This document shows, one piece after another, positions 1,437 through 18,797 of a DNA stretch of 38,934 nucleotides (positions within the stretch are counted from its first letter, which is position 1; each line of letters starts with the position of its first letter). Origin of the DNA: a virus; IMG/VR virus record IMGVR_UViG_3300046500_000231, positions 74,070 to 113,003 of that record; one strand, given 5' to 3'. The notes beneath the pieces were generated by a model. It had not been told where the DNA came from. It made no database searches and worked only from the letters and a program-made list of their open reading frames with translations. The translations under genes and the position numbers were made by a program.

Positions 1437-1859
1437 ATGACCACGAAGAAGAAGCCCGAAGCAATGACTGTCGCCGAATACTTCGATGCACAGGTCGCGC
1501 TACGTCAAATGACGCTGGCACAACTGAGCAAGGACATTGGCGGTGTGCTCAAGCCGAACATGCTGTCGATGATTCGCCAGGGGCACTCGAAGCTGCCGTT
1601 GATTCACGTTGGCCGCGTAGCGCGAGCGCTGGGCGTGGACCCGGTGTTCCTGCTGAAGCTGTGCATGAACGAATACCAACCGGAGAACTGGAAGGCGATT
1701 CAAGAAGTTTTCAGCGAACAGCCGATTCTGACGCGCAACGAGATTGCACTGATCAAGGCGATCCGCGACGCGAACCCGAATAACCCGAAGCTGAGCACGA
1801 AGGCCGACGAGCACAAGTTCACGCAAGTCGTCGCGGCGCTGGGCGGCGATAACGAGTGA
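1437..1859 (+). CDS. XRE-family HTH regulator, candidate master regulator
   Basis: Encodes 140 aa. Residues about 20-75 read as a helix-turn-helix of the XRE/Cro-CI kind (LAQLSKDIGG, then LSMIRQGHSKLPLIHVGRVARALGVD), followed by a 60-residue tail with a second basic/polar helical region. There is no peptidase domain, so it is not a LexA/CI-type self-cleaving repressor. AAGGAGAG lies 7 nt before the ATG. The gene has its own promoter carrying the AGTCA/TGACT arms and a perfect terminator at 1903-1926. It faces the leftward phage genes and sits inside the densest cluster of the palindromes, which makes it the best candidate for the protein that binds them. Repressor or activator action cannot be told from sequence. 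Confidence 0.85.
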   Translation: MTTKKKPEAMTVAEYFDAQVALRQMTLAQLSKDIGGVLKPNMLSMIRQGHSKLPLIHVGRVARALGVDPVFLLKLCMNEYQPENWKAIQEVFSEQPILTRNEIALIKAIRDANPNNPKLSTKADEHKFTQVVAALGGDNE

Positions 1860-2093: not shown

Positions 2094-2774
2094 TTATTCC
2101 GCCCTTTTGGTCGCTTCGAAGTGCGGACACCTGCTAACGCCTATCAAACGAATCGGTTGACCCCGATCATTGCGGTAAATTTGAAAGACTATCTCCACTT
2201 TGGGACATAATGCGTCCCTTGGTCGCACCAAAAGTGTGGCTCGCTCGGAAGACTCCAACAGGGTGCGATTGTAGAAATCATCAACCAACGGTTTACAATC
2301 ATCAGATAATAAAGCGCGAAAGCTGTCGTGGGACGGGAGGATCTCGGAGGGAGCGTTTAAGTGTCGGCGTGCGGGGTCGTTCCAATAGCACTTCCCTGTT
2401 AGCAGGTCTTCCTCAATGACACCGACGTCCAATAGATTGATAGCGACTGAGAGCCGCTCCTCATTGGCGATGACTTGTTCGACAAACTCTCTGCGGCGCT
2501 GTCCAAAGGTCTCTTGGGATCGTTGTTCTTCTAAGGACCGCAGCGCTGCGTCACCATAGCGTAGCCAAACCCAATTGACGCCAAGATGGTTGGCTACCTT
2601 CTGTAGCACTTCAAAGCCTATGTCCCCACCTTTGAGCCACTTGCCCACAGCTTGGGGAGTCACTGCAATGGCGCGCGCCAGCCCGGCCGCTGTCTCGTGC
2701 CTGTCATCCAAAGACTTTCTTAACCTATCGGGAAAGCCGGAGCCCTTGAAGTGGGCCGGAATTTTAGGTGTCAA
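2094..2774 (-). CDS. HTH-PAS fusion regulator (putative sensory repressor)
   Basis: Encodes 226 aa from a TTG codon at 2774, supported by AGAGGA 6-7 nt upstream; no ATG lies near. Residues 14-75 form an XRE-type helix-turn-helix (AAGLARAIAVTPQAVGKWLKG). Residues about 105-217 look like a PAS fold: LLDVGVIEEDLLTGKCYWND near 113-132 and a closing strand pair EIVFQIYRND...PIRLIGVSRC near 194-216. PAS domains commonly sense small ligands, redox state or mediate dimers. Phage repressors usually carry a peptidase or a simple dimer domain, so this architecture is uncommon. It lies divergent from parA and may control the partition/replication module or the lysogeny decision; targets are not visible. 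It has its own terminator. Confidence 0.75.
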   Translation of the reverse strand: MTPKIPAHFKGSGFPDRLRKSLDDRHETAAGLARAIAVTPQAVGKWLKGGDIGFEVLQKVANHLGVNWVWLRYGDAALRSLEEQRSQETFGQRRREFVEQVIANEERLSVAINLLDVGVIEEDLLTGKCYWNDPARRHLNAPSEILPSHDSFRALLSDDCKPLVDDFYNRTLLESSERATLLVRPRDALCPKVEIVFQIYRNDRGQPIRLIGVSRCPHFEATKRAE

Positions 2775-3106
2775 ACTCTGTCCTCTTGATAGTTATTTTC
2801 GAAACGTTGCCAAGCTCTTTTAGGGGTAGTTTGTAACGAATTATATTTGAGGACTGATATCGGTTTAGTTGTAATTGTGCAAAGGTTGCCTTCTTTAGAT
2901 TGATGCACCTATCGTGCAAGTATTGTTGATCCCGAGCATAATGGAAAGCAACCTCGTCATGGACAAAAGTTGATACAAAACTTGATAGCTTGATACCAAG
3001 GTATCAACATACCAAGGTATCGAACGTGCTGTTCGGCTTGCAATGTTTCTTGTATGAACATCCACTATGGATTACGCTACCGGCAAAACTTCGTATGGAG
3101 AAGGCT
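2775..3106. other. Divergent intergenic region between HTH-PAS gene and parA
   Basis: This 332-bp gap is AT-richer than its flanks. It holds possible promoters: TATAAT on the minus strand at 2845-2840, and on the plus strand TTGAGG (2847-2852), 17 bp, TGTAAT (2870-2875). The right part carries the TTGATACC repeat cluster at 2970-3021. The open frame upstream of the parA ATG covers the repeats and has no good start. Confidence 0.6.
2970..3021. repeat. Candidate parS centromere / parA operator
   Basis: TTGATACCAAGGTATCAA at 2990-3007 is a perfect 18-bp palindrome. Its core ATACCAAGGTATC recurs at 3009-3021, exactly 16 bp from the copy at 2993, and TTGATA half-sites also occur at 2970 and 2982. 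Such clusters ahead of parA are typical of binding sites for the partition partner protein, serving as centromere and as autoregulatory operator. The site lies 86 bp before the parA start. Confidence 0.7.
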
Positions 3107-3778
3107 ATGAAAAAAGCTAGGTCCGTAACTATGGTGGGAACAGAAAAGGGAGGTGTGGGCAAATCTACCTTTACACAAAACTTGGCATCAATCCGGTCGG
3201 GGCAGGGGCGGCGGGTCGCCGTGTTCGATCTGGACGGCCAGAATTCGACGTTCAAGTGGGCTGCCGACCGACGTGAGGCAGGCGGTTTGCCCGAGGTCCA
3301 CGTCAAGCGTATTGCAAAGGGAAAGAAGCTCGACGAGGACGAGTTTGCCGAGGAATTGGGCGAACTGACCGAGGAATATGAGGACGTTTTCATTGACGTC
3401 GGCGGGCAGGACTCGGACGTGTTCCGGTGGGGACTCGCGGTGGCCGATCACGTCGTCGTGCCGCTCATTCCATCGCCCGCGGACCTCAACACCGTGCCCG
3501 ATCTGTTCGATCTGGTCGGCACCTACACCAAGAAAATCCCGATCCAAATCGTGCTCAATCAGGCCGATAAAAGGAAACTGATGACGCAGGCGATGATCGC
3601 TCAGATCGAGCCTTTCGAGCACCGGCTGCCGCGCATGAAGATGCTGGTGGCGGCTCGCGAGAGCTACAAGTTTGCGATGGCGCAGGGCAGGGGAGTGGCG
3701 GAGTTGACTGGCCGGTATTGGGACGCGGCGGCCGCCAACGAGATGAAAGACCTTTATTTGGGAGTGTTCTCGTTATGA
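3107..3778 (+). CDS. parA: ParA-family partition ATPase
   Basis: Encodes 223 aa, the size of short plasmid ParA proteins without an N-terminal HTH. A deviant Walker A KGGVGKST lies at residues 14-21, DLDGQNS (Walker A') at 41-47 and FIDVGGQDS (Walker B) at 95-103. It drives plasmid segregation by ATP-dependent positioning on the nucleoid together with a centromere-bound partner. The ATG at 3107 is preceded by GGAGAAGG; an in-frame ATG at 3095 lies upstream but lacks a ribosome site. The stop overlaps the start of the ribbon-helix-helix gene at 3775 (ATGA), so the two are co-translated. The absence of an N-terminal DNA-binding domain fits the partner being the repressor of the operon. Confidence 0.9.
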   Translation: MKKARSVTMVGTEKGGVGKSTFTQNLASIRSGQGRRVAVFDLDGQNSTFKWAADRREAGGLPEVHVKRIAKGKKLDEDEFAEELGELTEEYEDVFIDVGGQDSDVFRWGLAVADHVVVPLIPSPADLNTVPDLFDLVGTYTKKIPIQIVLNQADKRKLMTQAMIAQIEPFEHRLPRMKMLVAARESYKFAMAQGRGVAELTGRYWDAAAANEMKDLYLGVFSL

Positions 3779-4549: not shown

Positions 4550-5332
4550 ATGAAGCTCAAGCACGCCACCACTGGGCCGAGCCTGGTTGATCGACATGTG
4601 TCCATGCACAATGACCTGCTCGCGGCGTCGCACGGGCTCAAAACGGTCGCCGAGCAGCGGATCGTCAAGTCATGCGCCGCGAAGCTCGACAGCGTGCGCC
4701 TAGACAGTCATAACCGCTACAAGGTGCGTTTGACGGCCCAGGAGTATGCCGACACCTTCGAGATCGACATGTCCACGGCCTACATTCAACTGAAGTCGGG
4801 ATGCGAGTCGCTCGCCGAGCGCTGGATCACGTGGAGCGAGCCGGTGCAGCGCGGTGCGGTTGCCGTGCATAAGGACCGGTGGGTGAGTGGGGCGACGTAT
4901 GTCGAGAAGGCCGGATGGGTCGAATTGCGGTTCTCGCCCGAAGCAACGCCGTATTTGATGGTCTTGCGCGGCAACCACACGACCTACTTACTCAAACAGG
5001 CTTCGGGGCTTCGCTCGATCTACTCGTGGCGACTGCTCGAGCTCCTCATGCAATTCAAAGACACCGGCTGGCGGCAGATGCCGATCCGCGAGTTCCTGCA
5101 CGCGATGGATGCAAAGCCGAGTCATCTCCAGAACTTCAAGGATGCGCGTCGCCAGATCATCGAGGTGGCTGTCGAGGAGCTCCAAAAGAAAGACGGCTGG
5201 CTTATCAACTGGTCGACGATCAAGGAGGGCCGCAAGGTCACGCAAATCCGCTTCGAGTTTTCGCGCAACCCGCAGGGTCAACTGGCGCTCGAGGACACCA
5301 GCCCGCCGGTAGAGGCGGAGCAATGCAACTAA
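4550..5332 (+). CDS. repB: Rep_3-family plasmid replication initiator (RepB-like)
   Basis: Encodes 260 aa, the usual length for Rep_3 initiators with two winged-helix domains. The first spans about residues 10-125 (LLAASHGLKTVAEQRIV, AQEYADTFEIDMSTAYIQLK) and the second about 140-245 (SGLRSIYSWRLLELLMQF, then LQNFKDARRQIIEVAVEEL and KVTQIRFEF). The protein binds iterons and recruits host DnaA/DnaB for plasmid replication. The first ATG is used here; it has no clear ribosome site because an iteron abuts it, and an ATG at 4604 is possible. Iterons upstream and DnaA boxes on both sides support the role. Together with parA it gives the phage a plasmid prophage state. Confidence 0.92.
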   Translation: MKLKHATTGPSLVDRHVSMHNDLLAASHGLKTVAEQRIVKSCAAKLDSVRLDSHNRYKVRLTAQEYADTFEIDMSTAYIQLKSGCESLAERWITWSEPVQRGAVAVHKDRWVSGATYVEKAGWVELRFSPEATPYLMVLRGNHTTYLLKQASGLRSIYSWRLLELLMQFKDTGWRQMPIREFLHAMDAKPSHLQNFKDARRQIIEVAVEELQKKDGWLINWSTIKEGRKVTQIRFEFSRNPQGQLALEDTSPPVEAEQCN

Positions 5333-5884: not shown

Positions 5885-6523
5885 CTACATGCGGCCCCAT
5901 CCGAGCGCGGCAGGTCGGCTGTAATGCGGGTTCTTCATTTTGAGCCAGTCGCGTGTGCGGCCGGCGGTGTAGGGCGCATCGAGCCGCTTTGCCATCACAC
6001 CCTCGAGGTCGAGCGTCGCCGCGTGCTGGAACGCGAGTTCCCCATGTTCTTCGACGCCGCCCGTATAGACGATGACCTTCGTGTCCATGAAGCTCTCACG
6101 CAGCATCGCCTTGCGCTCAAGCAGCCGCATGCGTCGCACGTCCTCTCGACCGGAGGCGAGCATATCGAACACGTAGAGCCTGGCTGGCTGTTCACGAGCA
6201 GCAGCGCGCACCCGCAATGGAACCCGAATGCGCGCCCGCTGCTGGAGGAGCTCGAACGACGGCCGCCCATCCGCTTCGTCCACCGTGAGTTCGGCATCCC
6301 ACACGAAACTGCCCGGCACCGCCTCAAGCGCGGCGACGATATCGGGAAACGAGCCGTTCAGCGAGTTGCCGTTGCGGGACACGAGCGCCACCTGATCGCC
6401 ATCCTTGCGCACCAGCGCGCGGTAGCCGTCGTATTTGATTTCGAAGATCCAGCCTTCGCGCGTGAACGGCGCCCGGGCGAGCGTCGCCAGCATCAGATGC
6501 GTATGGTCAATTGGCGGGATCAT
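5885..6523 (-). CDS. Minimal ATP-dependent DNA ligase, LigD-type adenylation domain only
   Basis: Encodes 212 aa. The nucleotidyltransferase motifs are present: motif I EIKYDGYR with nucleophile K30, motif III VWDAEL at 74-79, motif IV EGVMAKR at 174-180 and motif V WLKMKN at 193-198. The protein ends 14 residues after motif V, so the C-terminal OB-fold that normally completes ligases is absent; the usual length for this family is about 300 aa. It may act with a partner, on nicks only, or be a truncated gene. The ATG at 6523 overlaps the end of the upstream gene (6507-6707) by 17 nt. A second, unrelated T4-type ligase lies at 10279-11667. Confidence 0.85.
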   Translation of the reverse strand: MIPPIDHTHLMLATLARAPFTREGWIFEIKYDGYRALVRKDGDQVALVSRNGNSLNGSFPDIVAALEAVPGSFVWDAELTVDEADGRPSFELLQQRARIRVPLRVRAAAREQPARLYVFDMLASGREDVRRMRLLERKAMLRESFMDTKVIVYTGGVEEHGELAFQHAATLDLEGVMAKRLDAPYTAGRTRDWLKMKNPHYSRPAALGWGRM

Positions 6524-6707
6524 TGACCGCTTCCGGCAGACGAGCACTGACGAAAGCGAGCTTCGCCCAGGCGTTTGTCGGGTCGCAGCCGGAGTAAGCG
6601 CAAAAGTGCTCAAAGTCCTCGAGCACCGTATGACCGCCAGCGTTGCGTTTGAGCACGCGGCCCTCCAGAATGTTCGCAAGCATGGCAGACGGGTCTTTGT
6701 AGCACAT
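6507..6707 (-). CDS. Small hypothetical protein upstream of minimal ligase
   Basis: Encodes 66 aa. The ATG at 6707 is chosen because GGAGG lies 6 nt upstream; longer starts lack one. The sequence (LANILEGRVLKRNAGGHTVL, then FEHFCAYSGCDPTNAWAKL) shows no family I recognise. Its 3' end overlaps the ligase start by 17 nt, so the two are probably translated together and may work together. It is divergent from the zinc-ribbon gene at 6784. Confidence 0.65.
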   Translation of the reverse strand: MCYKDPSAMLANILEGRVLKRNAGGHTVLEDFEHFCAYSGCDPTNAWAKLAFVSARLPEAVNDPAN

Positions 6708-6783
6708 GGCGTCCTCCGCACGGTTACGCTTACTATGAGCAAACTGGATTCCATGCCAGAAAATGCGCCAACCGGGAGGCAGC

Positions 6784-6948
6784 ATGGCAGAGAAATGGAC
6801 CTGCACGCTCTGCGGCTACACAGCCGAGGACATTGAGGAATTCCATGCCGCGCACCATCGGGACGATGGACTCTACATGGAGGAGCCGATCTGTCCGAAC
6901 TGCGGAGCCGAAGATTCGGCAGTTCGTGTCGGCCCGATTCCAGAGTGA
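6784..6948 (+). CDS. Zinc-ribbon mini-protein
   Basis: Encodes 54 aa with two CxxC knuckles: CTLCGY near residues 6-11 and CPNCGAED near 36-43, separated by an acidic/histidine-rich linker. This resembles rubredoxin-like or zinc-ribbon proteins. GGGAGG lies 4 nt before the ATG, which sets the start. It is divergent from the gene at 6507-6707. Function unknown. Confidence 0.7.
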   Translation: MAEKWTCTLCGYTAEDIEEFHAAHHRDDGLYMEEPICPNCGAEDSAVRVGPIPE

Positions 6949-6960
6949 TAATCATTATTA
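6946..6960. promoter_or_regulatory. AT-rich palindrome ahead of the toxin-antitoxin operon
   Basis: TGATAATCATTATTA is nearly symmetric and overlaps the stop codon of the zinc-ribbon gene. It matches a 7-1-7 Fur-box pattern at almost all positions, but could equally be the antitoxin operator or a -10 region for the toxin-antitoxin genes starting 72 bp downstream. Role undecided. Confidence 0.4.
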
Positions 6961-10091: not shown

Positions 10092-10282
10092 TTCTTCGGC
10101 TCCTCGTGAATGACTTCGCCCAGCGCCGAGTCGATGCGCAGCACCATACCGCCCGGCGGGCACTGAGCGACAGCCTGATAGCGGCGCACATACACCTTCA
10201 CGCCGCTATAGCGCTTGTGCTGCTCGCCTTGCTCGTTGAGCACGATGAAGAGTTCCTTGATGGGGCTTTTGGCGACTTTCAT
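10088..10282 (-). CDS. Small hypothetical protein after the T4-type ligase
   Basis: Encodes 64 aa. Strand-rich pattern (ELFIVLNEQG, VKVYVRRYQAVA, GMVLRID). It overlaps the ligase stop (ATGA) and the next gene's start (GTGA), so it is translationally coupled on both sides. No function can be assigned. Confidence 0.65.
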   Translation of the reverse strand: MKVAKSPIKELFIVLNEQGEQHKRYSGVKVYVRRYQAVAQCPPGGMVLRIDSALGEVIHEEPKK

Positions 10283-11667
10283 GCCGTCTCCTCGACCTTC
10301 TTGCCGGTGACTGCGTTGGCGCGAGCAGCCAGCACGTCTTCAAGGCTGTCGGCGGCGTATTTGTCGATGCGATACCAGTCTTCGGCCATGCGCGGCAGAA
10401 AGAGGCTATGCAGCGGGTTGCTGTCGGAGGGATACATGACCTCGTTGAAGCGCACCGGCCAAATGCGGTCGAGGAACGCTTCGCGATTCGCGTCGATGGC
10501 ATCGCGCAGCTTTTCGTTTTTCACCGCCACATAAACGCGCAGCTTGTCGTCGCGGGTGCGCATGCCCACGCGCCCTGCCCGGCCTTCGTTCTTCGTGCCT
10601 GCTTCGCCGTCGAGGATCTCGAACGACTCCAGATCGACGTCGATCTCCAGCTTGAGCTTGACCACATCGGGGTTGCCGCTGGAGGTGTCTTTCCAGCCAC
10701 CGTCGCCGTTCTTAATGACCGTGCCTTCCTTGCCTTCGATCTGCAGGCTTGCGCAGTGCGCATAGGCTTCGTCAAGCGAATGAACGACCTTCGTCGGGAT
10801 CAGTCTGACCGCCTGATTGTCACGCCCGTGCAACTGCTGGATCAGTCGTGTAATGCGACGGCGATATGGCGTATCGACCTTACCCTTCGGCACCGCCGCT
10901 TCGAGCGGGATTTGATCCCACGCATAGAACACCGGCAATTCATTTGCCGCGAAACTCCCGCCGGCAAGCACACTGTTCAGAATGCCGTTACCGGTGGCAC
11001 GGTCCGCAATCACGCCGTCGATAAGCACGACGATTTCGCCGTGTGTTTGCGTGCCCTTGTTGAACGTCTCGCGGATTTCGGCTTCCATCTCCGGGAAAGC
11101 CTCGATCGGCAGTTCATTACCCTGGCGCGTGGTCAGACGCACGATACCTGCGTTGTCGTGGTCGACGTTCGTGAAGGCGCCGTCAGCCTTGTGCTGACTG
11201 AAGACACCCTCTTCCCACGTCCACTTGTCGAACTTAGCCTTCTCCGGCAGCACGCAGCGCATATAGGGGAACGCGCGAATCGTGCCCTTCTTCGCCTTGT
11301 TGGCGGTTTCCGCCGAGAAGCCTGCGCGCAGGTCTTTCTTGATGATTCGCCAGAAGAGTTCGGATGATTCCGGCTCCAGGCGAATCATTTCGCCCGTGAC
11401 AGCCATGATCGCGTTGTTGCCGGTCACGCGGCGCTCTGCCAGATCAGCGATGAGACGCCAGGTGCCATCGTCAAACAGTTCGTCGCCGATCGCGCCTGCG
11501 ACCGGGCGCTTGCTGATGCCGTAGCTCACGAGCGGGTCGAGTGAGGCGACGAGCACGCGCTCAAAGTCGGCGTCGACGAGATAGGCGGAGACGAGCGCCT
11601 GCTTGTCGTTCTTGCTGCTGGTTCTGGCGATCAGGTCGATCACCTGAAAAATGTCCTTCGAGTTCAT
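10279..11667 (-). CDS. T4 gp30-like ATP-dependent DNA ligase
   Basis: Encodes 462 aa, close to T4 DNA ligase in length. After an alpha-helical N-terminal domain come motif I HKADGAF with nucleophile K160, motif III THGEIVVLIDG near 208-218, motif IV EGTVIKN at 314-320 and motif V VKLKLEID at 336-343; the C-terminal part carries the OB-fold. It seals nicks during phage DNA replication and repair. It lies in the operon controlled from the operator at 13203, upstream of small genes and the nucleotide kinase. It is the second ligase of the window and is complete, unlike that at 5885-6523. Confidence 0.9.
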   Translation of the reverse strand: MNSKDIFQVIDLIARTSSKNDKQALVSAYLVDADFERVLVASLDPLVSYGISKRPVAGAIGDELFDDGTWRLIADLAERRVTGNNAIMAVTGEMIRLEPESSELFWRIIKKDLRAGFSAETANKAKKGTIRAFPYMRCVLPEKAKFDKWTWEEGVFSQHKADGAFTNVDHDNAGIVRLTTRQGNELPIEAFPEMEAEIRETFNKGTQTHGEIVVLIDGVIADRATGNGILNSVLAGGSFAANELPVFYAWDQIPLEAAVPKGKVDTPYRRRITRLIQQLHGRDNQAVRLIPTKVVHSLDEAYAHCASLQIEGKEGTVIKNGDGGWKDTSSGNPDVVKLKLEIDVDLESFEILDGEAGTKNEGRAGRVGMRTRDDKLRVYVAVKNEKLRDAIDANREAFLDRIWPVRFNEVMYPSDSNPLHSLFLPRMAEDWYRIDKYAADSLEDVLAARANAVTGKKVEETA

Positions 11668-13233: not shown

Positions 13234-14310
13234 TTAACGCCCCTTCGTGAGTCTCATGCGCGTCGCAGTCAGCGGATTGATGGTGGTGGCTTTCCAGAAG
13301 GCGTCGCGCACGACAGACGGCGGCACTTCGTTGGGATCGCGCCCTTCCGGGAGCACCGCCACGCGCGCAGTCAGCCCGATCGATTTCACCTTCAGCGCCG
13401 CCTCAATGGCCGCGTCGATCGCTTTGGGTTCGCCATCCCACATGAACGTAACCGCCTCCAGCCCGCGCTCCCTGAGCGTGGCGAGCTTTGCCATCTGCGA
13501 GGCGTCGTCGCCGTGCGAGAGGTGCTTGCCGAAGCTGCCCACCGGCACCACGTCGCGCAGTTCCGCCTGCTCATCGAGCGCGATCTTGGTGGCGGCGACG
13601 TCGAACACCCCTTCGCCGATCACGATGTGCTTGGCGTTGAGCGCGTTCTGGCCGTTGTAGAGGACCGAGCCCGTCGAGGCGAAGCCCGGCGGGAACAGGT
13701 ATTTCTTGTCCGCCTCGCCGGTGGTGTCGCGCCCCTGGAAGGTCACGAGGTCGCCCTCGAGGTCGAAGACGGGAATGATCACGCGATGGGCGTAGTTCTG
13801 CGCACGCGTTTTGCCGTCATCATCCTTGTAGAAGAACTTGCCGTCGAGCGAGAAGCGCAGATGGAAGTATTGAGCGATGCGCGCCGTGATGTTGCGGTTG
13901 TCCAGATACTTGAGGTTGCGCCCGTTGTGCGGCAGCGCGATCGACTTCGGCAGCTTCAGTTCCGTGTCCAGGTTCACCGCGACGGCGACTTTCTTCTTCG
14001 GCCGCCAGCCTTGCGTGCGCGCAAATGAGGTGATGTGGTCGATCACCTCACGATTGCTGTCCATGCCAAGCTGCGCCCGAATGAGCGTGAACTTGTTGAA
14101 CTTTTCTTCGCACACGAAGCAGTTGCCAAGACCCGTCTCCAGCCCTACGTAGACTTTCCAGCTTGAATTGCCGCAGCATGGGCACTCCTTGATATTGGCC
14201 TGGCGACCGCGAGCCCCACGAGTCTGCTTATAGGCGATACCCTGGTCATCGAGCCAATATTCAATATCGAGGCTCTCAAGCGCCTCTTGCAAATCGCCTC
14301 GATCGTTCAC
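13234..14310 (-). CDS. DNA primase (zinc finger plus TOPRIM)
   Basis: Encodes 358 aa. A zinc-binding region CPCC near residues 43-46 and CFVC at 64-67 is followed by the TOPRIM core: VIGEGVFD near 230-237 (catalytic Glu) and MWDGEPKA near 290-297 (metal-binding Asp). This is the DnaG/T7-type primase layout without a fused helicase; the helicase is separate at 15204. It makes RNA primers for phage DNA synthesis. The GTG at 14310 overlaps the stop of the HNH gene as GTGA, so its translation depends on that gene being read. Confidence 0.88.
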   Translation of the reverse strand: MNDRGDLQEALESLDIEYWLDDQGIAYKQTRGARGRQANIKECPCCGNSSWKVYVGLETGLGNCFVCEEKFNKFTLIRAQLGMDSNREVIDHITSFARTQGWRPKKKVAVAVNLDTELKLPKSIALPHNGRNLKYLDNRNITARIAQYFHLRFSLDGKFFYKDDDGKTRAQNYAHRVIIPVFDLEGDLVTFQGRDTTGEADKKYLFPPGFASTGSVLYNGQNALNAKHIVIGEGVFDVAATKIALDEQAELRDVVPVGSFGKHLSHGDDASQMAKLATLRERGLEAVTFMWDGEPKAIDAAIEAALKVKSIGLTARVAVLPEGRDPNEVPPSVVRDAFWKATTINPLTATRMRLTKGR

Positions 14311-14825
14311 CACGTCGCCCCTCGCTTAATTTTGCTCACAGTCGCTTGCGTGACGTCATGTGCGGCCGCAATAAGGCGCTGCAGCTCTCCTTCCGCGAGC
14401 CGACGACGAATATCGGCCACCGCTTCTTCGTTCAACTTGGCAGACGGATTTCTCTCGCCCTTCGGGTCCGTTCCGTGCAGTGCGCGATCCATCGCATTCT
14501 CGAGGCGCGTGCCATACCGGAGATTGCTCAGGACGTTGTTACCCTTGTTGCCGTCACCGTGACACACCTCAAGCCCTTCAGGGCACGGGCCTTCGAAGGT
14601 GAGCATTACGAGAATATGGACGGCCCACACCTTCTGGCCGTTGTTATGCAGCGTAACCATGTGATAGTTCCAGCTATTCGGCGCGGCCTTTAGAACCCTG
14701 CCCGCCTGCAATCTGTGACCGCCGTGCCACAGTCGTTGCATACGGTCGAGACTTCTAATTCTCCCGAGATTGGACGCTTGATAAAGCCCTTCATACCCCG
14801 GAATGTCGCGCCATTCTTCGATCAT
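14307..14825 (-). CDS. HNH homing endonuclease (NUMOD4-type)
   Basis: Encodes 172 aa. NUMOD4-like WRDIPGYEGLYQASNLGRIR at residues 5-24 is followed by an HNH_3-type core with H70 and VCHGDGNKGNNVLSNLRYGT near 87-106 (H89 and N residues), and a C-terminal helix-turn-helix LIAAAHDVTQATVSKIKRG near 151-169. Such free-standing genes spread by cutting related genomes lacking them. It sits between helicase and primase genes, a typical target neighbourhood, but overlaps the primase start as GTGA, so it is woven into the operon. A hairpin terminator lies 31 bp upstream of its start. No strong ribosome site is visible. Confidence 0.85.
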   Translation of the reverse strand: MIEEWRDIPGYEGLYQASNLGRIRSLDRMQRLWHGGHRLQAGRVLKAAPNSWNYHMVTLHNNGQKVWAVHILVMLTFEGPCPEGLEVCHGDGNKGNNVLSNLRYGTRLENAMDRALHGTDPKGERNPSAKLNEEAVADIRRRLAEGELQRLIAAAHDVTQATVSKIKRGATW

Positions 14826-15004: not shown

Positions 15005-15204
15005 GCCGGCCGTCCGCTGACCTGGCCGGCCGTGTCCAGCAATTCGCCGATGCGGCGGCTCACTTCGGCGGCCGCGCCGACGGCATGAGGGTTGCCGCGG
15101 TTTTCTTCCATGACGTCCTCGCAGGTCGCCTGCCCTTGCGCAAGCCCAATCTCGTAGCCTTGCGCGAAGCACTCCATTTCCTTTTTGTGGTTGAAAACGC
15201 CCAT
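15001..15204 (-). CDS. Small hypothetical protein after helicase
   Basis: Encodes 67 aa, mostly helical (ECFAQGYEIGLAQGQATCED and VGAAAEVSRRIGELLDTAG). Its ATG shares one base with the helicase stop (TAATG) and its stop overlaps the next ATG, so it is in a coupled series. No family recognised. Confidence 0.65.
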   Translation of the reverse strand: MGVFNHKKEMECFAQGYEIGLAQGQATCEDVMEENRGNPHAVGAAAEVSRRIGELLDTAGQVSGRPA

Positions 15205-16613
15205 TACTCGACCCTCAAAATGCTCTTGATGAACGTCATCGTCGCCATGTCCTGTTGGATGAACACGGTGAAGCCCGACTCCTGATTTCGAGACGCCGCG
15301 AAATACAGCCGCGCCTCGTTCTTGCTGCGCTCCTCGTCGGTGATGTTGATGGAGATCACCAAGTCGGCAATACGAATGCGGTTGAAGTCTTCCGCCACGT
15401 GCTCAGCTTTCGCCACCGTCGACTTGAAGCCTTCACGGTTGGTCTGCGTCGCAGACAGCATGGCGAAACCCTCGACCAGCGCGATATCGCGCATGTCCGT
15501 ATAAATCGACTTCGAGTTCTCCACCGTGTCGGGCGTGCGGATATTCGGCGACATAATGTCCAGGTAGTCGCACACCACAATGTCGAAGATCACGCCCTTC
15601 GCCTTGTAGCGGTCGATCAACGCCTGCATCTTGTTGGGCGTGAACTTGCCCGCCGGGTGGACGCTGATCTTGAGCATCCCGGCCTTCGCCCGCAGCGCCT
15701 TGATCTTGCTGTCGGTGTCGTGGATGGCCTTGCCGAGCTCCTTGATCTTGTTCTCGGCGATGGACGCGTCGAGACGCATGGAGATGATTTCTTCCTGCAG
15801 CTCCAGCGACACGTAGAGGACGTTCTTGCCGGCGAGCGACGCGTTCTTGGCGAAGTTGAGCAGCGCCGTCGACTTACCGGCCTTCGCCCCGCCCATGAAC
15901 AGCGTCAATTCGCGCCGCCCCCAGCCCTTGTGCATCAGCAGTTCGTCGAGCTTGGGCAAGCCGCTCGAAATCCCCTTCGGCGGCGTCTTGCCGCTCGCGG
16001 CGTCCAGGCGGTCTTCCGTTCGGGCCTCGATGCCGCCCCAGTAGTCGTAGTCGTCGTCATCCTCGTTCAAGCCGACGTCATACGCGTCCTTAATGGCCTT
16101 CAGGATCGGATCGAACTTCTTCTTCTCCAGAAGGCTCACCGAGGACAGGATTGCGTTGCTCACCGCCTGGTGCCGGGCGAACTCCGCAACCTTCTCAGCC
16201 ACGTAGTCACGATCGCCCACGTCGCCGTCCTTGAGCACCTTGAGCACGCGCACCACTTCGCCGGCGAAGTCTTTCTTCATCCGGCCGCTGGTGATTTCGT
16301 CTCGCAGCAGTGTCGAGATAACCGGGAACTCGGGCACGCGCTTGAACCGATCGAAATAGCGCTTGATCAGATCCACGAGCCCCGCTTCACCGGCATTCTC
16401 GAAGTAGTCGGGCTTGAGCAGGTGCGAGGTGCGGCGCATGAATTCCGTATCGCGCAGCACGAGCGTGGCGATCTTCGACTGGAATTCCTCGTCGAACTCG
16501 AACTTGGCGACTTCCTCCGACTCAGGTGCGACCTCAACGGCTGCACCGCTGAAGGCCTTGCCGACCATTTCCGCGACCGACTCCTCGACGCTCGGAATGG
16601 TGGCGTCGCTCAT
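15204..16613 (-). CDS. DnaB-like replicative helicase
   Basis: Encodes 469 aa, near the length of DnaB and T4 gp41. An N-terminal helical domain (about 40-180) is followed by the RecA-like core: Walker A GGAKAGKST at 241-249, the YVSLELQEE region near 267-275, Walker B IVVCDYLD at 345-352 and LSATQTNREG (motif H3) near 385-395. It unwinds DNA at the replication fork, working with the primase at 13234. The start overlaps the Hfq-like stop (ATGA). Encoding its own helicase and primase while also carrying an iteron initiator suggests two replication modes, plasmid and lytic. Confidence 0.9.
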   Translation of the reverse strand: MSDATIPSVEESVAEMVGKAFSGAAVEVAPESEEVAKFEFDEEFQSKIATLVLRDTEFMRRTSHLLKPDYFENAGEAGLVDLIKRYFDRFKRVPEFPVISTLLRDEITSGRMKKDFAGEVVRVLKVLKDGDVGDRDYVAEKVAEFARHQAVSNAILSSVSLLEKKKFDPILKAIKDAYDVGLNEDDDDYDYWGGIEARTEDRLDAASGKTPPKGISSGLPKLDELLMHKGWGRRELTLFMGGAKAGKSTALLNFAKNASLAGKNVLYVSLELQEEIISMRLDASIAENKIKELGKAIHDTDSKIKALRAKAGMLKISVHPAGKFTPNKMQALIDRYKAKGVIFDIVVCDYLDIMSPNIRTPDTVENSKSIYTDMRDIALVEGFAMLSATQTNREGFKSTVAKAEHVAEDFNRIRIADLVISINITDEERSKNEARLYFAASRNQESGFTVFIQQDMATMTFIKSILRVE

Positions 16614-17041
16614 TGGTAGTGGCCTTCTTCTGCGCGCTCGGCGACTTCAGCGACGGGAGCCAGCTGCACACGCGGGCGCGGCAGGGGCTTGAAGCGCTGG
16701 ATCGCGTGTTTGAAAATCACGTGCGTGTCGCCCGAGACTTCCAGCGAGATCGTGTATTTGTCGTGCGCCCGAATCTTGCCGGTCAGAATTTCTTCCTCGT
16801 CGCGCATGTAGACGACGATCTGTGCGCCCGACTCGTGCAGCGCCTTCAAGAACGCTTCGTGACCGGTCGGGGCGCCCTTGACCTTCGGCCGGGCGGGACG
16901 TTGCGCGCGGGTGCCGACGTAATCCGGGCGAGCGGTCAGGCGCGGGCGGCTCGACGGGATGGAATCGTCATCGCAACGGGCCATGTTGCGGCCTTCGCGC
17001 AGTTGCTCGGCACGTGCTTGTTCGGGGGTGAGGTAGCTCAT
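16610..17041 (-). CDS. Hfq-like (Sm-fold) protein of phage origin
   Basis: Encodes 143 aa. Residues 61-120 align by eye along the whole core of bacterial Hfq: HEAFLKALHESGAQIVVYMR (for the N-terminal helix and Sm1 start), then GKIRAHDKYTISLEVSGD and VIFKHAIQRFKP. The Hfq signature YKHA appears as FKHA (K111, H112), and the FDQF turn as HDKY. A 60-residue Arg/Pro-rich, likely disordered N-terminus and a short acidic C-terminus are extra. Hfq binds U-rich and A-rich RNA as a hexamer and pairs small RNAs with messages. GGAGAG before ATG 17041 decides the start. It opens the replication operon controlled at 17097-17124. Confidence 0.8.
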   Translation of the reverse strand: MSYLTPEQARAEQLREGRNMARCDDDSIPSSRPRLTARPDYVGTRAQRPARPKVKGAPTGHEAFLKALHESGAQIVVYMRDEEEILTGKIRAHDKYTISLEVSGDTHVIFKHAIQRFKPLPRPRVQLAPVAEVAERAEEGHYQ

Positions 17042-17096
17042 GAAACTCTCCAACAACGGGTATGGGGTGAAATCGAACGTCGAAACTGACACTCAC

Positions 17097-17124
17097 ATTA
17101 TAGTCAGTAATGACTATTGCTCAA
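17097..17124 (-). promoter_or_regulatory. Promoter with operator site 7 (AGTCA-GTAA-TGACT)
   Basis: The clearest example of the set. On the minus strand TTGAGC (17124-17119), a 16-bp spacer and TATAAT (17102-17097) form a sigma70-like promoter whose spacer is filled by a perfect-arm palindrome (17102-17115). The stop codon of the upstream gene (17114-17116) lies inside the operator. It drives the Hfq-like, helicase and following genes. Confidence 0.82.
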
Positions 17125-17854
17125 TGCTCGCGTATGTGATGGCCTGCTCGACGACTCCCGGAGGAAACTCGCGCAGCGCGGCTTCGATGCGCAGCACCCC
17201 GTGCGTGTAGAGCGCGGCCGCAAGTGCGTAGTGGTGGTGCCGGCGCTGCTTGATCTGCGCAACGAGAAACGCTTCATAGGCGATCTGGTCGGCGTGACCG
17301 AACCAGTTTTCGGCCCGATACCGCTCGTCGTGGCAAATCTGCAGGCTATTGCGGCACTCCTCCTCCCAGGCGAGCACGAGGTCCGCGAGCATCTCCTCGT
17401 TGGTGTTCATGTGCGAGGGGCGCGGCGCGTGGTGCCAGTTGTGGGCGATCTTCCAGTTCATGGCAAAGCGCAGAAAGAAGTCGTAGCGCACGCCGAGCTG
17501 GTCGGCCGTCTGCCGGAGCTGCCAGAGCGATTTCTTCTCGCGGGCTTCCAGCACGTCGGGGCCGCCCTTGAACGGCTTCATGAAGCGGCCGCGCTCGTGA
17601 TCGAGCGTGACGATCATGAAGTTCTGATACGCCTTCTGGTAGCACTGGGCGAACAGGTAAGTCGCCTTTGTCGGGTGCATGCGCCGGTAGTCGAACCACT
17701 TAGTCGTGAGCAGTTCGGGTTCCCGTTTCAGGAGCCGCCCTTCGATGTTCGCAATCGCCTTGACCTCGCAGTGCAGGAATGACAGATCGTGGCCGTAGAA
17801 GTCCCCGAACCATTCCGCGAGCTTGGGTTCGTCGACTTGGGTAACTTGGGTCAT
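17114..17854 (-). CDS. Hypothetical phage protein, Trp/His-rich
   Basis: Encodes 246 aa of unknown function. It is rich in Trp, His and Tyr, mostly helical, with possible metal-binding His clusters (NWKIAHNWHHAPRPSHM near 132-148 and QRRHHHYALAAALYTHG near 204-220). I see no enzyme motif. Its promoter region differs from the others: an AT-rich stretch with TTAATACTTA repeats instead of the AGTCA palindrome. It sits alone between PhoH and the replication operon. Confidence 0.65.
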   Translation of the reverse strand: MTQVTQVDEPKLAEWFGDFYGHDLSFLHCEVKAIANIEGRLLKREPELLTTKWFDYRRMHPTKATYLFAQCYQKAYQNFMIVTLDHERGRFMKPFKGGPDVLEAREKKSLWQLRQTADQLGVRYDFFLRFAMNWKIAHNWHHAPRPSHMNTNEEMLADLVLAWEEECRNSLQICHDERYRAENWFGHADQIAYEAFLVAQIKQRRHHHYALAAALYTHGVLRIEAALREFPPGVVEQAITYASIEQ

Positions 17855-17877
17855 CCTTCGCCTCTCGTATATAAAAC

Positions 17878-17917
17878 TTAATACTTAGAATGTAGATTGA
17901 ATAACTATTAATACTTA
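17878..17917 (-). repeat. AT-rich promoter region with direct repeat TTAATACTTA
   Basis: TTAATACTTA occurs at 17878-17887 and 17908-17917, exactly 30 bp apart (about three helical turns), in the only strongly AT-rich gap of the phage block. Seen on the minus strand as TAAGTATTAA, it lies 24 bp upstream of the start at 17854. Possible activator-dependent promoter. Confidence 0.5.
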
Positions 17918-17981
17918 CGGGAGCGCATTGGGAGCCCAAGTGGCGGCCCCGCGTTACCCGTGTCCCATCAGAGACGAATAT

Positions 17982-18008
17982 GGGCGGACCCGAGAACCGG
18001 ACCCGCCC
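17982..18008 (-). terminator. GC-rich hairpin after PhoH gene
   Basis: GGGCGG at the left and CCGCCC at the right of this 27-bp stretch pair, with a further CCG/CGG pairing inside. It lies 33 bp after the PhoH stop. It lacks a T-run on the minus strand, so it is a weak or factor-dependent terminator at best. Confidence 0.35.
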
Positions 18009-18041
18009 TTGACCTTTCTTATCGGATCGGCCAGAGGTCGC

Positions 18042-18797
18042 TCATGCCGCCTCCCGCTCGTAGCTCTCGACGATCTCCTGAACCAGCCCCGAGCGCACCA
18101 CGTCCGCTTTCGAGAACTCGACGTGCCCAACTGCCGGAATCCAGGTCACGCGCTTCAGGGCGTCTTCCAGACCGGAGGGTCCGTGAATGTCCTTCTGGCG
18201 AATGTCACCGTTGACCACGACCTTGCAGTCCTCGCCGATGCGCGTGAGGAACATCTTCATGCCGACCGGCGTGGTGTTCTGGGCTTCGTCGAGGATGACG
18301 AACGCGTCGCGGAACGTGCGGCCGCGCATGAAAGCAAGCGGCACGGCCTCGATGTTGCCCATGCGCATGTGGTATTCGAACGCTCCGGTGCCGAGGCGCT
18401 CGATCAGCACTTCCTTGAACGGCACGAGATACGGGTCGAACTTCTCGCTCAGGTCGCCCGGCAGGAAGCCCATCTCCTCACCCGCTTCCACCGCGGGGCG
18501 CGTGATGATGATCTTTTCGACGCGCTTGTCGCGCAGGGCATCTGCTGCAAGCGCGGTCACAACCCACGTTTTGCCGGTGCCAGCGGGCCCAGTCGCAAAC
18601 GTCAGTGTCTTGCCCTTGATGGACGCGATATAGCGCTTCTGAGCGCTTGTGCGGGCTTCAATCGGCTCGAAGCACGCACGCACCACCTTGCGCTGCTCGG
18701 ATTGAGCGGCGGCGTCGTGGAGCTTGGCATGGTCCTCATGTTGCCGACGATCGGCGCGGGCTTTCTGGCGGGTCTGGTGAGGCTGCTTGCGGGGCAT
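18042..18797 (-). CDS. phoH: PhoH-like ATPase
   Basis: Encodes 251 aa. Walker A GPAGTGKT is at residues 70-77, IITRPAVEAGEEMGFLPGDL near 97-116 is the strongly conserved PhoH block, and Walker B FVILDEAQN is at 166-174. PhoH is common in phages; it is an ATPase of the superfamily 1 helicase type, with RNA-linked roles proposed. The basic N-terminus (MPRKQPHQTRQKARADRR) could bind nucleic acid. A one-gene transcription unit with its own operator and promoter at 18830-18850. It stands next to a metallophosphoesterase, though in a separate unit. Confidence 0.92.
   Translation of the reverse strand: MPRKQPHQTRQKARADRRQHEDHAKLHDAAAQSEQRKVVRACFEPIEARTSAQKRYIASIKGKTLTFATGPAGTGKTWVVTALAADALRDKRVEKIIITRPAVEAGEEMGFLPGDLSEKFDPYLVPFKEVLIERLGTGAFEYHMRMGNIEAVPLAFMRGRTFRDAFVILDEAQNTTPVGMKMFLTRIGEDCKVVVNGDIRQKDIHGPSGLEDALKRVTWIPAVGHVEFSKADVVRSGLVQEIVESYEREAA

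Follow-up and report, generated by a model that had tools for sequence, protein, structure and literature searches.

The stretch of DNA analysed here (38,934 nucleotides, referred to as the window) comprises the final 39 kb of an uncultured virus record 113 kb in length and contains, next to a replicative helicase gene, a minus-strand gene (16610-17041) whose predicted 143-residue product resembles bacterial Hfq. This arrangement raises the question of whether the protein belongs to the Hfq family and, if so, which use a mobile element would make of an Hfq of its own. A first-pass annotation had described the gene as a phage-encoded Hfq-like RNA chaperone heading the replication operon.

The open reading frame extends from an ATG at 17041 to a stop codon at 16610. 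If translation began at an in-frame GTG at 17092, the protein would be 17 residues longer; the ATG is, however, the likely start codon, since the GTG is located at or upstream of the transcription start expected from a TATAAT box at 17097-17102 and since the Shine-Dalgarno sequence GGAG preceding the ATG is kept in the relatives. The Hfq/Sm core domain occupies approximately residues 59-120 (16682-16867, minus strand), as delimited by the Pfam match and the predicted helix and strands. Residues 62-119 matched the Pfam Hfq model PF17209 with an E-value of 4.1e-10 and 39.5 bits, above the curated cut-off of 27, whereas the match to the NCBIfam Hfq equivalog TIGR02383 remained far under the cut-off (35.4 versus 61.7 bits). 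A phmmer search against the PDB matched only Hfq or Hfq-like chains (best E-value 4e-5), and a PHROGs search placed the protein near PHROG 5258 and PHROG 19781, both without an assigned function. The AlphaFold2 model, computed from an alignment with nine family members, had a mean pLDDT of 71 and about 90 in the core (residues 61-119), which consists of a helix (61-71) and strands 74-79, 85-93, 97-102, 105-110 and 114-119 and represents the alpha plus five-strand Sm fold. All 50 of the 50 matches listed by Foldseek against the PDB were Hfq, including the proteins of Listeria, Bacillus, Caulobacter, E. coli and Aquifex, with target-normalised TM-scores of up to 0.93, at a core identity to host Hfq of only about 21-33% in the Foldseek alignments. 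The similarity along the full Hfq core and the KHA signature (K111, H112, A113) that had been noticed in the first-pass annotation are confirmed by these data, and neither a fold other than Sm-like nor a failure of the Hfq profile to match was encountered. The protein represents a divergent Hfq paralogue belonging to a lineage of phage-plasmids.

The nature of the element follows from its gene content. The window encodes a Rep_3 plasmid replication initiator (4550-5332, plus strand; Pfam Rep3_N E = 1.7e-34, Rep3_C 6.8e-14) and a ParA/MipZ-type partition ATPase (2990-3778, plus strand; MipZ 5.2e-13, CbiA 7.8e-12, AAA_31 8.6e-12), and the same record carries outside the window a terminase and a PolIII alpha subunit. 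A tape-measure match slightly under cut-off was also obtained. Phage genes (terminase) and plasmid replication and partition genes (Rep_3, ParA) thus reside on one element, so that the designation phage-encoded is appropriate with regard to the phage genes but has to be amended in that the carrier is a phage-plasmid and not a plain phage. Among named records, the nearest DnaB proteins were found on Acinetobacter plasmids of about 110 kb (49.7% identity) and in the Pseudomonas phage nickie (44.5%), followed by Rhizobium phages and SSU5; the DnaB identity across these records ranges from 38 to 50%. The gene order PhoH - phrog_2500 - dnaB - primase - ligase is shared with nickie, RHEph10 and pABTJ2, with no PhoH gene in the stretch of pABTJ2 that was seen. 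The AB_1 phage-plasmids of Acinetobacter are distant relatives of SSU5 (PMC12977533), and host and size suggest that pABTJ2 belongs to the AB_1 group. The element is very likely a phage-plasmid of the broad SSU5/AB_1-related group, with SSU5 and the AB_1 phage-plasmids as distant relatives. Antisense-RNA control of plasmid copy number via the Hfq-like protein was set aside as a role because the Rep_3 initiator is present; Rep_3 replicons are generally iteron-controlled.

Relatives of the Hfq-like protein in viral contigs displayed 38-100% identity, and wherever the flanks were long enough the gene was located between a PHROG 2500 homologue and the DnaB helicase. Gene order also led to the 89-residue protein CNR34_00048 of phage nickie (Pfam E = 4.4e-5), to two relatives of nickie, L042 and L043, which matched Pfam Hfq with E-values of 1.9e-9 and 1.4e-7, and to a member on a contig binned as Chloroflexi (L059). 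A contig from a betaproteobacterial MAG (L058) encodes the same protein as L011. A plasmid search with member L012 yielded ABTJ_RS19485 of Acinetobacter pABTJ2 and its like in 151 records, annotated as hypothetical among the matches listed. A tblastn search of the Hfq-like protein against 50,697 phage records returned nothing at an E-value of 0.01, nor did another family member at 0.1; since the nickie homologue surfaced via gene order, this failure reflects divergence and not absence. Likewise, a scan of genome contigs with the family alignment found none, whereas a scan with DnaB did find members. The records of RHEph10 and RHph_X66 (Rhizobium), SSU5 (Salmonella) and ANB28 (Stenotrophomonas) contain no match to an Hfq model, and in the Rhizobium phage, SSU5 and pJN2-26 records too little space precedes dnaB to accommodate an Hfq-like gene. 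Klebsiella pJN2-26 yielded two weak matches to PF17209 (E about 0.01, one with internal stops), which were dismissed as chance. Small, barely recognisable Sm-looking proteins precede dnaB in a Photobacterium contig (L060:2650-2952, 101 residues) and in ANB28 (L020:3781-3990, 69 residues); they were not accepted as members, as profile comparison gave no support and the Photobacterium protein reached a Pfam E-value of 0.0055 only.

To which extent the functional surfaces of Hfq are retained was deduced from 13 distinct family members. The residue classes of E. coli Hfq were mainly taken from a published description (PMC11770335), to which a few positions were added. In the proximal pore, all 13 members have Lys at K56 and Phe or Tyr at Y55, the F42 position is aromatic in 12 of the 13 (the exception being pABTJ2) and His occupies H57 in 11, with Ser in nickie and L042. 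The protein of the window contributes F110, K111, H112 and Y96 to the pore, and its Q8 position is a His, as in 12 of the 13 members; this His is absent from the host Hfqs aligned here, so the specificity of the pore may differ. At six of the seven interface sites (F11, L12, I24, V54, I59 and V62) the residues are hydrophobic throughout the family, a conservation that would permit rings, be they homomeric or heteromeric. The rim position R16 is basic in none of the members, R17 in two and R19 in three; His, Glu and Gly stand there in the protein of the window, which hence lacks the annealing rim. The distal face of the family is 12% identical to that of E. coli and has no consensus of its own: Y25, G29, I30, L32, Q33 and T61 correspond to Y, E, E, L, T and R in the window, the ARN site is not preserved and the distal loop is the acidic RDEEE. 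According to this alignment, of the RNA-binding surfaces it is the proximal U-pore that is conserved, as a signature of the family, whereas neither the rim arginines nor the A-binding distal face has been retained. It has been described that the annealing activity of Hfq tracks the number of rim arginines, and that U-binding by the proximal pore is a generally conserved function whereas the distal face varies (PMC6561178). The former rim and distal surfaces may also simply contact something other than RNA. Consequently, the proposed RNA chaperone holds as far as the Hfq-like fold is concerned, but it is doubtful whether the protein is a chaperone with all the activities of E. coli Hfq, because the rim arginines and the distal ARN face are lost and the equivalog cut-off is missed. 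Redirection of host small-RNA control, protection of phage RNA and mixed hexamers with host Hfq, as put forward in the first-pass annotation, would be candidate roles.

The same pattern bears on two alternatives. That the gene is a chance resemblance or a decaying relic without RNA function might be suggested by the barely recognisable same-locus proteins of ANB28 and Photobacterium, but it is extremely improbable and largely refuted by the significant Pfam and fold matches, by a reading frame that is open in every member found and by pore residues that are among the most invariant across the 13 members. Interference with host Hfq, in which mixed rings or the soaking up of sRNA 3' ends would shut down host sRNA control during infection, deserves more attention, because a hydrophobic interface and a retained pore combined with the loss of the annealing rim and the distal face are expected for a dominant-negative subunit. 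It has been reported that a monomeric chromosomal Hfq of Bacillus anthracis disrupts E. coli Hfq, and Hfq3, encoded by the B. anthracis plasmid pXO1, is toxic when overexpressed (PMC5348863). The toxicity of Hfq3 is, however, described there as requiring distal-face residues and as independent of host Hfq, whereas the phage-plasmid family has lost this face; mixed rings are uncertain at the low core identity to host Hfq, and the location of the gene in the dnaB operon points to a role in the replication phase rather than an immediate-early one. Interference is therefore considered unlikely.

The region ahead of the core (16868-17041, minus strand) was delimited by secondary structure and pLDDT of the AlphaFold2 model, charge and conserved residues. 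It corresponds to the extra Arg/Pro-rich N-terminal arm of the first-pass annotation and comprises about 59 residues with a net charge of +5, rising to +7 in the last 32, of which a helix (6-21) and a subsequent low-confidence, basic Arg/Pro-rich stretch up to about residue 58 were modelled. R10, E12, Q13 and G17 are invariant across six relatives. The relatives also possess an arm, of variable length (17 to 68 residues), which is net positive in all 11 members measured. Basic rim residues are partly retained in short-armed members (IRDK in nickie, IVRR in L043) and are gone in the clade of the window, a pattern that fits an arm standing in for the lost rim, although few sequences lie behind it.

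The genomic position of the gene provides the second line of evidence. The stop codon of the Hfq-like gene overlaps the start codon of the DnaB-like replicative helicase gene (15204-16613, minus strand; Pfam DnaB_C E = 7.3e-15, PHROG 19 E = 6.4e-76) in the sequence ATGA, and the interval is within a few bases in L002, L004, L005, L006, L011, L012 and L013. A DNA primase gene (13234-14313, PHROG 47 E = 8.2e-53) follows downstream in the same direction, and a PHROG 2500 gene without assigned function (17114-17854, minus strand, E = 1.9e-65) is the invariant upstream neighbour, in an order kept in the relatives, with a syntenic PhoH-like ATPase gene beyond it (18042-18797, minus strand, Pfam PhoH E = 2.5e-76). 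For the hfq-dnaB operon a sigma-70-type promoter was predicted, TTGAGC-16-TATAAT (17097-17124, minus strand, 10 of 12 matches), which is conserved before the gene in L001-L005, L011 and L012 and in a weaker form in L006; the promoter scan as a whole was at chance level, and it is this conservation that supports the assignment. Hence, the Hfq-like gene indeed heads the replication operon, with a conserved promoter of its own.

Two further alternatives arise from this arrangement. An accessory function in replication, in which an Sm ring would act together with co-translated DnaB in the handling of ssDNA, R-loops or primer RNA or in helicase loading, is favoured by the constant neighbourhood of dnaB with overlapping or nearly overlapping frames and by the independent parallel of archaeal plasmids with Hfq-like genes directly beside helicase genes (PMC3543421). 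SSU5, RHEph10 and RHph_X66, however, possess the phrog_2500-dnaB-primase block without an Hfq-like gene, which makes the latter dispensable for that kind of helicase, and DnaB is far more conserved than the Hfq-like protein (93% versus 66% identity to L004). We consider such a function quite unlikely. Autoregulation of the operon, by binding of the protein to its own mRNA and tuning of dnaB translation through the coupled start, would draw on the ATGA overlap and on the reported autoregulation of E. coli hfq (PMC6348989), but the lost distal A-binding face speaks against the usual 5' UTR mode, and this explanation appears highly improbable.

Moreover, the -10 box of the promoter is overlapped by the palindromic operator TAGTCATTACTGACTATAAT (17097-17116, minus strand), a motif with 12 matches in the window versus 0.02 expected. 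The core palindrome AGTCA-N4-TGACT occurs in 29 exact copies in the 113-kb record as compared with 0.08 in shuffled sequences, and 26 of these copies lie in non-coding sequence, which makes up 14% of the record according to a simple codon-usage gene calling. Within the window the copies are located at 1207, 13203, 17102, 18837, 22065, 22087, 27962 and 34335, and 21 more sites are present in the record, mostly directly upstream of minus-strand genes; the consensus on that strand is approximately CAACAGTCARAACTGACTA(T/A)A. The palindrome was also detected in the related records G001-G003 and, as the diverged variant AGTAAGCGCTTACTATAAT, in pABTJ2. By analogy with the C1 operators of P1 and the stoperators of mycobacteriophages, the set looks like genome-wide operators, and the Hfq-like gene is probably controlled by the repressor of the element via the operator in its promoter. 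The candidate for the cognate repressor is a Cro/CI-type HTH protein (1437-1859, plus strand; HTH_3 E = 1.4e-4, 22.2 bits versus a cut-off of 23), as copies or near-copies of the palindrome at 801, 856, 1207 and 1310 surround the divergent gene pair that includes its gene. A second HTH protein is encoded at 2094-2774 (minus strand), and the region 801-1859 represents a candidate immunity region. Searches of the window for Rfam families and for tRNAs returned none. Between the PhoH and PHROG 2500 genes, a non-coding stretch (17855-18041) is about 89% identical to L004, as compared with 75% and 83% for the coding flanks. It contains an AT-rich leader as well as a GC-rich hairpin (GGGCGGGTCC...GGGTCCGCCC) and is a possible terminator/leader or small RNA.

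The reading that we tentatively prefer, as a possibility somewhat short of probable, is that the protein forms a homomeric Sm ring with U-rich 3' ends bound in the pore and the arm serving as a grip on the RNA, and that it handles the element's own transcripts in the replication phase. Its computed part comprises the Hfq fold, the interface, the pore, the lost rim and distal sites, the arm, the overlap with dnaB and the operator-overlapped promoter. Six copies would assemble into the ring, and the proximal pore would grip U-rich 3' ends, with terminator tails as candidates, be they those of sRNAs or of phage or host transcripts. Leaving on the proximal side, the basic arms of the six subunits would hold the body of the RNA and thereby substitute for the rim arginines that were lost. 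Upon release of the repressor, the Hfq-like protein would be made together with the replicative helicase and would act on the 3' ends and the stability of the element's transcripts while the element changes over from plasmid to phage replication. The pairing of sRNAs with mRNAs, as performed by E. coli Hfq, is not the proposed role. A narrower version, namely a replication-dedicated, proximal-only and repressor-switched ring made with DnaB that either handles R-loops or the 3' ends of RNA at the fork or controls the plasmid-to-lytic switch, is very unlikely; if true, it would be a case of convergence with the Hfq-like proteins encoded beside helicases on archaeal plasmids.

A comparison with known systems places the protein more precisely. 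With the Hfq proteins of E. coli, B. subtilis, Listeria and Caulobacter it shares the fold, the KHA signature with K56/H57 and the hydrophobic interface, and it differs from them in the His at Q8, the basic arm and the loss of the rim arginines and the distal ARN site. ABTJ_RS19485 of pABTJ2 occupies the same locus, between a phrog_2500-sized neighbour and dnaB, and likewise has its Hfq-like domain after an N-terminal extension, but this arm is unrelated in detail and the pore is less typical (Tyr at Q8, Glu at F42). In the profiles of PHROG 5258 and PHROG 19781 the Hfq-like part is also at the C-terminal end, and for neither of these nor for ABTJ_RS19485 was an Hfq name found in the sources consulted. 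CNR34_00048 of nickie (Nickievirus) overlaps dnaB at the same locus, but its Pfam match is below the curated cut-off, an 18-residue lead replaces the long arm and Ser is present at H57. Hfq3 of pXO1 is likewise an Hfq paralogue of a mobile element with an altered rim, but retains the distal face, and the available part of the report mentions no link to a helicase operon. The helicase-linked proteins on plasmids of Thermococcus and Methanocaldococcus combine a C-terminal Hfq-like domain with an N-terminal addition (PMC3543421), but they are archaeal, carry a Zn-finger instead of a basic arm and are encoded downstream of the helicase. Phage-encoded Hfq-like folds are also known from mycobacteriophages: gp39 of Adephagia was identified by fold (PMC11373665), and UniProt names proteins of Tonenili and Phabba Hfq-like. 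In the open-access literature, no publication naming Hfq in SSU5/AB_1-type phage-plasmids was found.

When IMG/VR was scanned with a pattern of the E. coli Hfq core, a method that detects close relatives only, the one match obtained looks like a chromosomal gene of Moraxellaceae; Hfq of the host type seems to be nearly missing from viral contigs. Phage Hfq-like proteins and the plasmid-borne Hfq of B. anthracis were already known; what is new is a redesigned Hfq variant in the dnaB operon of phage-plasmids, kept by one lineage as a dedicated gene beside its replicative helicase, including the 151 Acinetobacter plasmid records. The family thereby provides a natural separation of Hfq functions, in that the pore is present whereas the rim and the distal face are lost. 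It also offers a system that can be cultivated, in which the use of a dedicated Hfq by a mobile element could be studied, and it suggests functional labels for PHROG 5258 and PHROG 19781.

Several minor observations concern the replication genes of the element. An HNH (NUMOD4) endonuclease gene (14307-14825) is located between dnaB and the primase gene, and a GIY-YIG-looking gene is present elsewhere in the replication block of L006 (1100-1984) and L004 (7171-7914); these are probably homing endonucleases invading the block. The window contains two different ATP-dependent DNA ligase genes (5885-6955 and 10279-11667) within 6 kb. Finally, residues 972-1070 of the PolIII alpha subunit (L048:6275-9640, minus strand; positions 66275-69640 of the record) match the uracil-DNA glycosylase superfamily (E = 1.7e-8), an unusual C-terminal fusion.
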